Part shown: positions 30,982 through 55,306 of the stretch, piece after piece
Numbering within the stretch: the first letter of the stretch is position 1
Layout of the letters: every line of letters begins with the position of its first letter
DNA from: Candidatus Phelpsiimicrobium noxiivivens
GTDB lineage: Bacteria > Omnitrophota > Gorgyraeia > Velamenicoccales > Velamenicoccaceae
NCBI GenBank assembly: GCA_001873995.1
Contig: MNVR01000021.1
Coordinates: 1 to 64,000, forward strand
DNA: 64,000 nt
Direction: 5' to 3'
The notes under the pieces: model-generated
Database searches by the model: none
Told to the model about the DNA's origin: nothing
The model's input: the letters and a program-made list of their open reading frames with translations, nothing else
Translations under genes and position numbers: made by a program

Positions 30982-31542
30982 ATGAAAGAGATACGGATAC
31001 ACGCCCGGGCAGGCCAGGGGGCTATTACCACGGCCAGCATATTGGGTTACGCCTATTTTTCAAAAGGCCAATACCCTTACGCCTTTCCTCATTTTGGGGC
31101 TGCTCGCATGGGCGCGCCGATGAACGCGTTTGTGCGCATTGATGATAAGCCGGTGCGCTTAAGGAGCCAGGTCTACAATCCTGATTACCTTATTGTAGTT
31201 GACGCGACACTTATGCGCGGGTTTGACTGCTACGTGGGTTTTAAAGACGACGGCATAGCTATCGTGAATGAAAGGGAAGGGATCGAGATACCGCAGCCTC
31301 GCGGTAAGCAGAAGCTTTTTATGGTCCCGGCCGGCAAGATATCCACGGAGATCATGGGCAAAACACTTTTAGTAAACACTGTGCTTTTGGGAGCTTACGC
31401 GGCCGCTACAGGCGAACTGAAGCTTGAAGATATGATAAAGGCCATAAGCGATCGTTTCGGCGATAAGGGTAAGGCAATAGTGGACATGAACGTAGAGGCT
31501 ATTAAAAAAGGATACCAGTTTATAAAGGACACCCCGCGCTAA
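30982..31542 (+). CDS. porG: pyruvate/2-oxoacid:ferredoxin oxidoreductase, gamma subunit
   Basis: The 186-residue protein has the gamma-subunit signature: IRIHARAGQGAITTASILG, YPYAFPHFGAARMGAPMNAF and LLVNTVLLGAYAA. With the delta, alpha and beta genes that follow it forms a four-subunit PFOR-type complex that oxidises pyruvate (or a related 2-oxoacid) to acetyl-CoA and reduces ferredoxin. Its last codons (DTPR then TAA) are encoded by the conserved start of a family-2 leader element. The gene end and the next gene's control region therefore overlap. Confidence 0.93.
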   Translation: MKEIRIHARAGQGAITTASILGYAYFSKGQYPYAFPHFGAARMGAPMNAFVRIDDKPVRLRSQVYNPDYLIVVDATLMRGFDCYVGFKDDGIAIVNEREGIEIPQPRGKQKLFMVPAGKISTEIMGKTLLVNTVLLGAYAAATGELKLEDMIKAISDRFGDKGKAIVDMNVEAIKKGYQFIKDTPR

Positions 31543-31645
31543 GCGGCACCTGGCCCTTATAAGGAATTGGGCCAGTGTCCGCCCAGTGGCGAAATTGCGT
31601 CGGTGTTTCGCTAAATAAAACATTAAGGTGCTCAAGGAGGCAAAA
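31529..31645 (+). promoter_or_regulatory. family-2 RNA leader with nested second copy, upstream of porD
   Basis: The outer element starts ACACCCCGCGC-TAA (31529-31542) and resumes at AAATTGCG with GGTGT (about 31602-31615). An inner hairpin CAC-C-TGGCCC / GGGCCA-GTG (31547-31577) with the usual bulged C occupies the outer loop. The final TTGTGT/ACACAA hairpin of other copies is not evident. CAAGGAGG precedes the porD start. The element begins inside the end of porG. It looks like one copy inserted into the loop of another. Confidence 0.55.
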
Positions 31646-36640: not shown

Positions 36641-36697
36641 ATACCCGGCGCTTTATGGTATCGCGCCGGTGTGTGTCTACTACACAAGGAGGTTGTT
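36641..36697 (+). promoter_or_regulatory. family-2 RNA leader of the ferritin-like gene
   Basis: TAC-C-CGGCGC (36643 onwards) pairs with GCGCCG-GTG with the constant bulged C. GTGTGT and ACACA form the second hairpin, which runs into CAAGGAGG and the ATG at 36698. It follows a family-1 leader in tandem, the only such case in the window. Confidence 0.65.
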
Positions 36698-47661: not shown

Positions 47662-47722
47662 ACACCCCGCGCTAATCGGAATTGCGCGGGTGTTGTGTCT
47701 TTCTACACAAGGAGATCATAAA
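47662..47722 (+). promoter_or_regulatory. family-2 RNA leader of rplY
   Basis: ACAC-C-CCGCGC (47662-47672) pairs with GCGCGG-GTGT (47684-47693), leaving one bulged C. The tip is AAT-CGGA-ATT. TTGTGT (47693-47698) and ACACAA (47705-47710) form a second hairpin that runs into AAGGAG. It is the type example together with 50346 and 61404. Confidence 0.75.
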
Positions 47723-52315: not shown

Positions 52316-54640
52316 ATGACACAAAAAAATAGTTATCCTATTGCCTGCCTGTTCGCTTTATTCCTTGTTTCTTCTTCCGTTGTTTTCGCGCAAAATGAAG
52401 AGCCTGCGAAAGATACGCAAATTCAAAAAGAAGTAAAGGTTATTGAAGTCACGGGTAATAAAGCGATAAGCACGCCTACTATTATGGCCAAGATCAAGAC
52501 GCGCGTTGGCCAGCCTTACTACGCGCAGGCCTCGCGGGATGACATCAAGAGACTATACGAAACCGGCTTCTTCTCTGATATTACCTTAAGCCTGGTAGAT
52601 CATGAAGGCGGGCTTAAGGTCATTTTTAAAGTTGAAGAAAGGCCGGTCATTGAAGAGATCAGGATAGAAGGCAATCGTAAAGTCGCCCGCGGTATACTTA
52701 CGCATAAGCTCAAGTCGAAAATGGGGCAATATCTGAACTTGGCACTTTTGAAAGAAGATGTAGCCGCCTTTAAGAAAGAGTATGAGAGGCACGGCCTTTT
52801 GGATGTTTCAATTGAGCATACCATAGATACAGATCCTAAAACGAATAAAACTAAGATCGTGATACTGATCGTTGAAGGCAGGCAGGTAAAAATACGTAAA
52901 ATATACATAGACAACAACTTTCGTTTCTCAGATAAAAAGGTCATAAGTCTGATAAAGACAAGAACAGTAGGGTTCCTGCGCGCCGGTTTCTTTAAAGAAG
53001 ACCAGTTCAGTGATGATCTTGAGCGCATTAAGGCATTTTATCTTAAGAATGGTTATCTTGATGCCAAGGTAGACTACAGGATAGATTATGATACTAAAAA
53101 AAATATATACTTACGTATTTTGATAGAAGAAGGCAAGCAGTATACAGTAGGCAGTATTGCTATAAGAGGTTATGAGAAGTTTTCCGAGTCAGAGGTCAGG
53201 GATAGTCTCAATGCTTGTTTGCCGGGCGGCGTGTTCACCTATGACGCGTTAAAGGAGGATGTTGCCAATATACAGGGATTTTATTTCGGTAAGGGATATA
53301 TATTCGCGCAGGTGAAAGAGTCAACAGCATTGGATTCAGCGTCTGGCAAAGTGAATATCAGCTATTCTCTGGAAGAGAACCAAGAGGCTTATGTGGATCG
53401 TATTGAGATACGTGGTAATTTAAAAACGCAGGATAAAGTTATTCGTCGTGAGTTAAGGATAAGGCCTGGTGAGAAGTTTGACGGCGGTAAGCTTAAACGC
53501 AGTAAAGAGCGGCTTTACAACCTGGGATTTTTTGAAGAGGTAAATTATGATACCTCTCAGGGCACGGAAGTCAATCAGCGAAATCTCATCGTTGACGTGA
53601 AAGAAGCGAAAACAGGGTCTTTTAGCTTTGGCGGCGGTTATAGTTCCATAGATCAGTTCGTCGGGTTTGTTGAGGTAGAGCAGAAGAACTTTGACTGGAG
53701 AAATTGGAACACATTTACCGGCGCCGGACAGGATGTCAAGGCGCGCGCTGATATGGGATCTGTCAGGCAGAACTTTGAGCTGAGTTTTACAGAGCCCTGG
53801 ATGTTTGACCATCCCGTAGCTGGAGGTTTTGATCTTTATAAACGCGTGCATGATAAAAATAGTGATGTTGGGTATGGTTATGTAGAAGATAGGACGGGCG
53901 GCGACTTAAGATTAAGCAAGGAGTTCACGGAATATGTAAAGGGAGGCGCGTCTTATCGTATTGAACAAGTTGATATATCGGATGTCGCGTCAACGGCTAC
54001 GCAAGACCTTAAGGATGAGCAAGGCAAAAAACTTATAAGCTCTGTTGAGTTTTTCTTAACGCGCGATACTACGGATAACGTCTTTAATCCTACGAGGGGC
54101 ACCGTTATAAGTGGTTCTTATGAAATAGCCGGAGGGCCTTTCGCGGGGGATAAAGATTTTAATAAATTATTTTCCCTGGTTTCGCAATACGTGCCTGTGT
54201 TTGGCAAAGGTGTATTGCAGTTTGAGCTAAGGGCCGGCGTTATGCAGGCCTTCGGCGATAGTGATAAAGTACCTATTTATGAAAGATTCTATGCTGGTGG
54301 AGCTAATACTATAAGAGGCTATGAAGAAAGAAGTGTCGGCCCTATTGACCATAATACTAATGATCCGTTAGGAGGAGAATCTCTGATCGTAGGAAATATA
54401 GAATATACCGTGCCGTTATTGGAGTTTGTCAAGGGAGCGCTTTTTATTGATAGCGGGAACGTATGGTCCAAGGCTCAGGATATAGGCGACGGGGGTTTTA
54501 AAACGGGTGTTGGATTTGGCGTGCGTATTAAGACGCCCATAGGCCCGCTTAAACTTGATTATGGTATTCCTATGGAAATACAACCCGGTAAAAATAAAAG
54601 AGAAGGAAGATTCCATTTTAGCATGAGCCATGGATTCTAA
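52316..54640 (+). CDS. bamA: outer-membrane protein assembly factor BamA
   Basis: The 774-residue protein has a signal peptide (NSYPIACLFALFLVSSSVVF, then AQNEE) and five POTRA domains. Recognisable parts are VIEVTGNKAISTPTIMAKIK, IEEIRIEGNRKVARGILTHK and VDRIEIRGNLKTQDKVIRRE. A 16-strand barrel with YERFYAGGANTIRGYEERSV (the VRGF/Y-type lid motif) ends in RFHFSMSHGF with the terminal Phe. It inserts beta-barrel proteins into the outer membrane. It heads the operon with skp and the lipid A genes. Confidence 0.95.
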   Translation: MTQKNSYPIACLFALFLVSSSVVFAQNEEPAKDTQIQKEVKVIEVTGNKAISTPTIMAKIKTRVGQPYYAQASRDDIKRLYETGFFSDITLSLVDHEGGLKVIFKVEERPVIEEIRIEGNRKVARGILTHKLKSKMGQYLNLALLKEDVAAFKKEYERHGLLDVSIEHTIDTDPKTNKTKIVILIVEGRQVKIRKIYIDNNFRFSDKKVISLIKTRTVGFLRAGFFKEDQFSDDLERIKAFYLKNGYLDAKVDYRIDYDTKKNIYLRILIEEGKQYTVGSIAIRGYEKFSESEVRDSLNACLPGGVFTYDALKEDVANIQGFYFGKGYIFAQVKESTALDSASGKVNISYSLEENQEAYVDRIEIRGNLKTQDKVIRRELRIRPGEKFDGGKLKRSKERLYNLGFFEEVNYDTSQGTEVNQRNLIVDVKEAKTGSFSFGGGYSSIDQFVGFVEVEQKNFDWRNWNTFTGAGQDVKARADMGSVRQNFELSFTEPWMFDHPVAGGFDLYKRVHDKNSDVGYGYVEDRTGGDLRLSKEFTEYVKGGASYRIEQVDISDVASTATQDLKDEQGKKLISSVEFFLTRDTTDNVFNPTRGTVISGSYEIAGGPFAGDKDFNKLFSLVSQYVPVFGKGVLQFELRAGVMQAFGDSDKVPIYERFYAGGANTIRGYEERSVGPIDHNTNDPLGGESLIVGNIEYTVPLLEFVKGALFIDSGNVWSKAQDIGDGGFKTGVGFGVRIKTPIGPLKLDYGIPMEIQPGKNKREGRFHFSMSHGF

Positions 54641-54663: not shown

Positions 54664-54766
54664 CACCTGGCCATTATGGACACCCCGCGCTAATTTGAAT
54701 TGCGCGGGTGTGCGCTCGGTAGCGTAAATTAGGCCAGTGTTGTGTCTGCACACAAGGAGGAGTCAG
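54664..54766 (+). promoter_or_regulatory. family-2 RNA leader of skp, with a nested second copy
   Basis: An outer stem CAC-C-TGGCC (54664 onwards) / GGCCA-GTG encloses a complete inner element ACAC-C-CCGCGC / GCGCGG-GTGT (54680-54711) with tip AAT-TTGA-ATT. The TTGTGT / ACACAA hairpin and CAAGGAGG then follow. Both stems keep the bulged C. It is the clearest case of one copy sitting in the loop of another. Confidence 0.7.
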
Positions 54767-55306
54767 ATGTTCAAGAGAAGCGTGGTTTTGTCAGTGGTAA
54801 TATTGTTTTTAGCGATCTTTGGGCTTTCATTGAATGCCTATGCCGCGGGTAAGATGGGTTATGTTGACCTATCGTCTACTTTTGACAAGTATGAGAAGAC
54901 GAAAGTCTATGATGACGCCCTTTCTTCAGTTCAGAGCGTTAAGGAGAAAGAGTTAGAGCAGTTATCCAACGAAATAAAAGCTTTGGAAGATAAGATGTCT
55001 TTATTGAGCGAAAAAGAGAAGACGGCTAAAGGCCAGGAGCTGGAAGGTAAGAAAAAGCAATTGACCCAGATGAGCCAACAGGTAGCTTTGGACTTAAGAA
55101 AAGAGCGCGACGAGAAGCTCAAGGAGATCCTTCAGGATATAGAAAAGGTCGTTCAGTCTTACGCTCAGAAGAATGGTTATGATTTTATTTTTAATGACAG
55201 AGTACTTTTATATGGCGCGGCAAACGCGGACGTCACGCAGGATATCGTAGATCTATTGAACGGCGGATATAAGAATAAGCCCGCGGGAAAAGCCGGCAAA
55301 AAGTAA
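54767..55306 (+). CDS. OmpH/Skp-like periplasmic chaperone
   Basis: The 179-residue protein has a signal peptide (SVVLSVVILFLAIFGLSLNA, then YAAGK) and GKMGYVDLSSTFDKYEKTK. Two long coiled-coil tentacles (about 50-130) and a closing YAQKNGYDFIFND strand complete it. Skp holds unfolded outer-membrane proteins for BamA, encoded just upstream. ATG 54767 follows CAAGGAGG; the GTG at 54737 is inside the leader. Confidence 0.9.
   Translation: MFKRSVVLSVVILFLAIFGLSLNAYAAGKMGYVDLSSTFDKYEKTKVYDDALSSVQSVKEKELEQLSNEIKALEDKMSLLSEKEKTAKGQELEGKKKQLTQMSQQVALDLRKERDEKLKEILQDIEKVVQSYAQKNGYDFIFNDRVLLYGAANADVTQDIVDLLNGGYKNKPAGKAGKK

Follow-up and report, generated by a model that had tools for sequence, protein, structure and literature searches.

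The intergenic segment upstream of skp raises the question of how one hairpin element came to lie inside the loop of another, directly before a ribosome-binding site. In the window (the whole 64,000-nt stretch of DNA that was analysed), positions 54664-54755 between a bamA-like gene and skp hold two copies of a two-hairpin element, one lying within the loop of the other; the 3′ end of the outer copy meets the Shine-Dalgarno (SD) sequence of skp. The explanation that we favour, with a probability of roughly 0.8, is that the skp leader consists of two nested copies of a non-autonomous mobile palindromic element of ~48 nt, which would insert at SD sequences or into the loop of an existing copy and would move as single-stranded DNA.

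Architecture of the skp leader

The leader reads CACCTGGCC-ATTATGG-(ACACCCCGCGCTAATTTGAATTGCGCGGGTGT + GCGCTCGGTAGCGT)-AAATTA-GGCCAGTG-TTGTGTCTGCACACAA-GGAGG, where the parentheses enclose the full inner unit. Its features, with those of the flanking genes, are as follows:

52316-54640, + strand: bamA-like gene, upstream (stop codon 54638..54640)
54664..54672, + strand: outer copy, 5′ arm of hairpin 1, CACCTGGCC, with one C unpaired (from sequence and folding)
54673..54679, + strand: outer copy, loop, 5′ half (ATTATGG), whose right edge is the insertion point of the inner copy
54680..54711, + strand: inner copy, hairpin 1, ACAC-C-CCGCGC / loop / GCGCGGGTGT (match to model R1, E 4e-9)
54712..54725, + strand: inner copy, hairpin 2, GCGCTCGGTAGCGT (GCGCT CGGT AGCGT)
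54726..54731, + strand: outer copy, loop, 3′ half (AAATTA)
54732..54739, + strand: outer copy, 3′ arm of hairpin 1, GGCCAGTG (from sequence and folding)
54740..54755, + strand: outer copy, hairpin 2, TTGTGTCTGCACACAA (TTGTGT CTGC ACACAA)
54754..54760, + strand: skp SD AAGGAGG, overlapped by the end of outer hairpin 2; host-owned (present without the element in genomes G002 and G005)
54767..55306, + strand: skp (OmpH family, PF03938; Pfam match), ATG at 54767

A preliminary description of this locus had proposed an outer stem opened in its loop by a complete second element, and its coordinates and pairing proved correct, with all pieces in place. It had also let a TTGTGT hairpin and a ribosome-binding site follow the outer stem. 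This order holds in the sequence and in the DNA fold, which comprises the nested structure together with the final hairpin (z -3.8 for this strand, -4.6 for the other), but the TTGTGT hairpin is lost from the RNA minimum-energy fold, in which the outer stem encloses two inner hairpins (z -2.0).

The nested arrangement is not due to chance. Inner hairpin 1 matches the family model with E 4e-9, the TTGTGTNNNNACACAAGGAGG block has two matches in the window against 0.07 expected, and the whole nested form is found at a second place of this genome (C13:11359) with 79% identity. The outer 5′ arm CACCTGGCC recurs in the same genome in a solo copy (C26:23896) and in an inner copy (C6:15342). By its position the segment is a leader, and it may have a regulatory role.

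The element family and its distribution

Each element consists of hairpin 1 followed immediately by the short hairpin 2, ~48 nt in all. Hairpin 1 has the form A-CACC stem, loop TNATNGG-AATT and stem-GGTG-T, with 10 pairs, a single unpaired C after CACC and a loop made of a GG half and an AATT half. Among 76 distinct sequences, its positions pair in 97.1% of cells compared with 83.1% after shuffling, and there are 84 double-sided changes (17.9 when shuffled), distributed over 8 of the 10 pairs; in slid controls the signal collapses. Covariation, which the preliminary description had named as a test of the outer stem, thus supports stems of the outer type across the element family. With the exception of the terminal pair, G-T pairs are scarce in these stems, which would fit constraint on the element as DNA at least as well as on RNA.

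Hairpin 2 directly follows hairpin 1 in 124 of 133 copies. Its stem is very variable (45 distinct inner 4-bp arms), yet 96% of its pairs are Watson-Crick, compared with 31% when the arms are re-paired; most of its loops end in T. Subfamilies differ in their feet: copies with a TGTNT-type hairpin 2 prefer AAG before hairpin 1, those with a GCCC-type one prefer TA, and some subfamilies seem to bring 3–7 extra nucleotides at the 5′ foot. One subfamily has AAG on both sides, and the left AAG stays where the right side differs, so that AAG looks like a part of the element and not a target duplication. We found no consistent target duplication among the copies, and the exact ends of the element are therefore uncertain by 1–3 nt. 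A related subfamily in genome G004 (L101, L103, L104 and L105), with AGACC/GGTCT feet, lies beside other small hairpins (CCGCCTCTGGCGG) and not before SDs.

A covariance model of hairpin 1 (R1) recovered 34 copies in this genome, 15 in G021 and 11 in each of G004 and G006. Across the class, 36 of 292 genomes scored above threshold (at most 24 candidates scored per genome), concentrated in a few families. A DNA search with the inner 33 nt likewise matched several relatives and many places of this genome. The window itself contains, beside the skp leader, the following copies:

31529..31640, + strand: second nested copy, SD after it; outer arms CACCCCGCGCTAAGCGG ... AATTGCGTCGGTG around an inner copy at 31546-31578
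36641..36692, + strand: solo copy abutting the SD of a gene encoding MGERFRKTSG...
47662..47714, + strand: solo copy abutting the SD of the ribosomal protein L25 gene
50346..50397, + strand: solo copy abutting the SD of the ribosomal protein L9 gene
61404..61454, + strand: solo copy abutting the SD of a gene encoding MKTDKVLGIL...

In this second nested copy (window 31524-31640), the 3′ part, TTTCGCTAAATAAAACATTAAGGTGCTCAAGGAGG, is longer and different; two other loci of the genome, C11:32599 and C9:59098, share it.

Scanned for the exact pattern, 84,980 species yielded 107 stretches, and 80 of 80 among the matches listed belong to Omnitrophota, including the complete genome of Ca. Velamenicoccus archaeovorus LiM; the closed 1,974,201-bp genome G006 matches Ca. 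V. archaeovorus NZ_CP019384. There was no exact match in a collection of viral contigs. So far, then, the element has been found in Omnitrophota only. Our finding no description of such repeats from this phylum in the open-access literature is weak evidence of absence.

Empty sites, nesting and position at SD sequences

The element is mobile, as the comparison of occupied and empty sites shows. At skp, all seven other genomes of the family lack an R1 match. The sequence before skp in G005 reads TAACCAAAAGGAGG; the element-free versions are TAACCAAAAGGAGGAATAGC-ATG in G005 and a sequence ending in AACCAAAAGGAGGAATCAG-ATG in G002. Since the SD is present in both, it is a host sequence, immediately in front of which the unit was inserted. 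The preliminary description had looked to relatives for a single-copy form of the skp leader. No species with a single copy at skp was found; what the relatives offer is the empty site. Its own counter-argument, that all relatives might carry the long form, does not apply as worded, because the skp site is free of the element in all seven and the outer type is found as solo copies at other places in the genome.

Within another genus, g78, glyA is preceded by AACATA/AGGAG in G124 and is filled at the point of the slash in G137; rpsF is filled in G137 and empty in G092 and G290; and a LeuA-like gene is filled in G137 and empty in six species. The smc site is empty in G092, G124 and G161 and holds different copies in G137, G267, G290 and G185. 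G137 carries eight copies with identical hairpin 1 before unrelated genes. The distant genome G021 has a nested element before its own skp, which is most simply explained as an independent event.

Nesting is recurrent. When the flanks were scored for an enclosing stem, 11 cases reached the top score, where shuffles gave 0.3, and a looser score admitted 20, where shuffles gave 3.5; the null here is the shuffled one, as a re-paired null recreates nested pairs. About 6 of 23 score matches are chance pairings without the CACC foot (e.g. window position 47662 and L144 in G137) and were not counted as nested, whereas by inspection about 16 of the listed enclosures have a CACC-type foot and the conserved unpaired base. 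The break point is almost always the same, after ...GG (or ...AG, ...TA) and before (A)AATT. Nested cases occur in G000, G004, G006, G021, G124, G185 and G267, with further ones in flanks (e.g. L134 in G137), and at least one locus (C82 in G021) appears by eye to be nested three deep; solo copies with the same outer arms are present in G000 and G021. Across species, the accB-like, pilT-like and smc leaders vary among solo, tandem and nested forms, with all three in the accB-like leader and solo and nested ones in the pilT-like leader, in each case formed by different copies. As the closed LiM genome holds nested copies, nesting is not an assembly artefact. At L019 (C17:50123 in G002), the two hairpins of one copy are separated by a further copy in inverted orientation. 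The suggestion in the preliminary description that a mobile palindromic unit can enter its own loop is borne out by the empty sites, the many non-orthologous copies and this recurrence at one loop position.

The copies are positioned at SD sequences with high precision. No more than 3 nt separate the end of the copy from the SD in 57 of the 79 copies located upstream of a same-strand reading frame; in most of the remaining cases the copy is an inner one, and it is its outer partner that adjoins the SD. In the independent exact-pattern set, 63 of 102 copies adjoin an SD in sense orientation, whereas no antisense copy does so. Genes for ribosomal proteins account for 14 of about 75 bearing genes, compared with about 3.5% expected (binomial 3e-7; gene identities were checked, and the expectation derives from an estimated 52 of 1500 genes). 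Copies also abut the 5′ ends of tRNA-Arg genes in G004 and G006, and others abut A-tracts, the reverse of terminator T-tracts.

Several loci stand apart from the common SD arrangement. At L092, L094, L099 and L168 (G004 and G006), hairpin 2 ends exactly at the tRNA-Arg 5′ end or overlaps it by ~2 nt, and at L168 the first nucleotides of a tRNA-Gly gene are complementary to GCTCGC in the outer copy. At L151 (G267), a putative ATG start comes immediately after hairpin 2, and no SD lies between them. Unrelated inserts, of which at least one is a palindrome, lie just upstream of the same SD sites at L221 (G267 cysK), L202 (G161 smc) and L118 (G002 skp); more than one hairpin family may therefore use this position as an insertion hot spot.

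Placement at the SD edge could reflect targeting or selection. We suggest, tentatively, that the machinery recognises the SD edge and the element's own loop in a strand-specific manner, which would make these units miniature elements that home to translation starts and create new 5′ leaders throughout the phylum. It is also possible, if somewhat doubtful, that insertion is random and that copies survive only just upstream of an SD or where they have helped expression, a reading that needs no targeting and is compatible with mobility. Insertions in coding DNA would be lost, and the enrichment at highly expressed genes may mean a benefit; however, the distances between copy and SD cluster at 0 ± 1 nt instead of spreading across intergenic space, and 17 of 17 examined copies in G137 are in sense orientation. 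Zero spacing and single orientation favour targeting, and purifying selection surely contributes.

Mechanism and relation to known systems

On the mobile-element reading, the unit would have two kinds of insertion site, entered in a single orientation: the 5′ edge of a host SD and, in a copy already present, the point between the GG and AATT sides of the hairpin 1 loop. The skp leader would be the product of one insertion of each kind, in succession. The inserted unit would then serve as a structured 5′ untranslated region that leaves the SD free. By analogy with REP sequences and the ends of IS200/IS605 elements, it may move in the form of folded single-stranded DNA, which a host enzyme of the HUH/Y1 type would cut and paste in trans. 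We prefer a DNA route because G-T pairs are few and the stem has an unpaired base, as do the substrates of TnpA-REP and IS608 TnpA: the former enzyme requires its hairpin to have a bulge or other single-stranded features, and the latter makes contact with a stem base that is left unpaired (PMC8266576). An HUH/Y1 route would also agree with the conservation of the unpaired C, with the orientation on one strand and with nested sites that lack a duplication.

No mobilising enzyme was identified among the Y1 transposase and reverse transcriptase candidates. Y1 transposase genes are present in most of these genomes; a copy of the element lies within 1.5 kb of only 1 of 30 Y1 loci, the Y1 tree has no clade limited to element-rich genomes, and G061 and G008 carry copies and have no Y1 match. 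Among the Y1 loci examined, there was no full-length relative with a Y1 gene between the same end hairpins, and so variable a hairpin 2 speaks against a sequence-specific end.

The lack of a linked transposase favours spread without any transposase, by template switching at hairpins during replication or repair or by gene conversion between copies, processes that could also be proposed for the hairpin elements of mitochondria. The strong hairpins, the perfect head-to-tail tandem copies and the half-copies resembling slippage products agree with such a process, which nevertheless appears unlikely to us given single, oriented and precise SD insertions at unrelated genes with no flanking homology to the donor. 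An RNA route, in which the hairpin RNA is joined to RNA ends (SD-trimmed mRNA, the 5′ end of a tRNA or a terminated 3′ end) and copied into DNA, would account for copies abutting SDs, tRNA 5′ ends and terminator T-tracts, for their sense orientation and for the excess at ribosomal protein genes. Reverse transcriptase PF00078 is, however, absent from G137, G267, G281, G111, G185, G290, G092, G021 and G099, which are at least 92% complete and carry several to many copies; movement based on reverse transcriptase is unlikely as a general route, and we regard the RNA route as a whole as distinctly improbable. Least probable of all is an inherited regulatory RNA (a riboswitch-like or ribosomal-protein-like leader) kept by selection and not mobile. 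The conserved structure, the SD-adjacent position, the sense orientation and the cysK and glnB leaders that bear the element in distant families agree with it, but it conflicts with the empty sites of close relatives, with identical copies that precede unrelated genes of a single genome, with nesting and tandem arrangement, and with the copies at terminators and tRNAs; in the window, Rfam at gathering thresholds reported tRNAs only and no match to the element. Integron attC sites were set aside on the sole ground that the copies precede core genes and do not lie in cassette arrays.

If the mobile-element reading is correct, Omnitrophota possess tiny, phylum-specific mobile DNA that settles at SDs and leaves them intact, in many cases in front of ribosomal protein genes, and that stacks inside its own copies. 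It would provide a natural route for copying one 5′ leader to many genes and a clean system for studying the movement of tiny palindromes without a linked transposase, with Ca. V. archaeovorus as a host available in enrichment culture.

Among known systems, the element resembles REP sequences and REPINs (mobilised by TnpA-REP/RAYT) in being a short imperfect palindrome with an unpaired stem position (a bulge), extragenic, multi-copy and non-autonomous, and in its compensatory stem changes (PMC3733652, PMC8266576). It does not belong with them, as it has no fixed GTAG or CGTC tetranucleotide (one subfamily has AAG as its foot, another has TA) and no RAYT gene was found beside its copies or flanked by repeats; it also differs in consisting of two unlike hairpins in fixed order, arranged head-to-tail and nested instead of in inverted pairs, and in its precise position at the SD. 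Like MITEs such as ERIC and Correia elements, it is small non-autonomous mobile DNA that enters transcripts (PMC2229807). Membership in that class fails because the two hairpins are unlike and the ends are not inverted repeats of each other; there is also no clear target duplication, and the unit measures only ~48 nt. The end hairpins of IS200/IS605-type elements share with it the two hairpins, the unpaired stem base, the one-strand orientation and the absence of target duplication at nested sites, whereas here hairpin 2 is hypervariable and no full-length element with these ends was found. Mitochondrial double-hairpin elements and the small dispersed repeats of cyanobacteria are mobile hairpins found inside one another's loops or in other repeats; they belong to other genomes, differ in sequence and have no demonstrated relation to the present element, and we know of no SD-edge placement for either. 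The best reading is that the element represents a distinct family that behaves like the small mobile palindromes of the REP and MITE kind and adds to their behaviour nesting in its own copies and seating at the SD edge.
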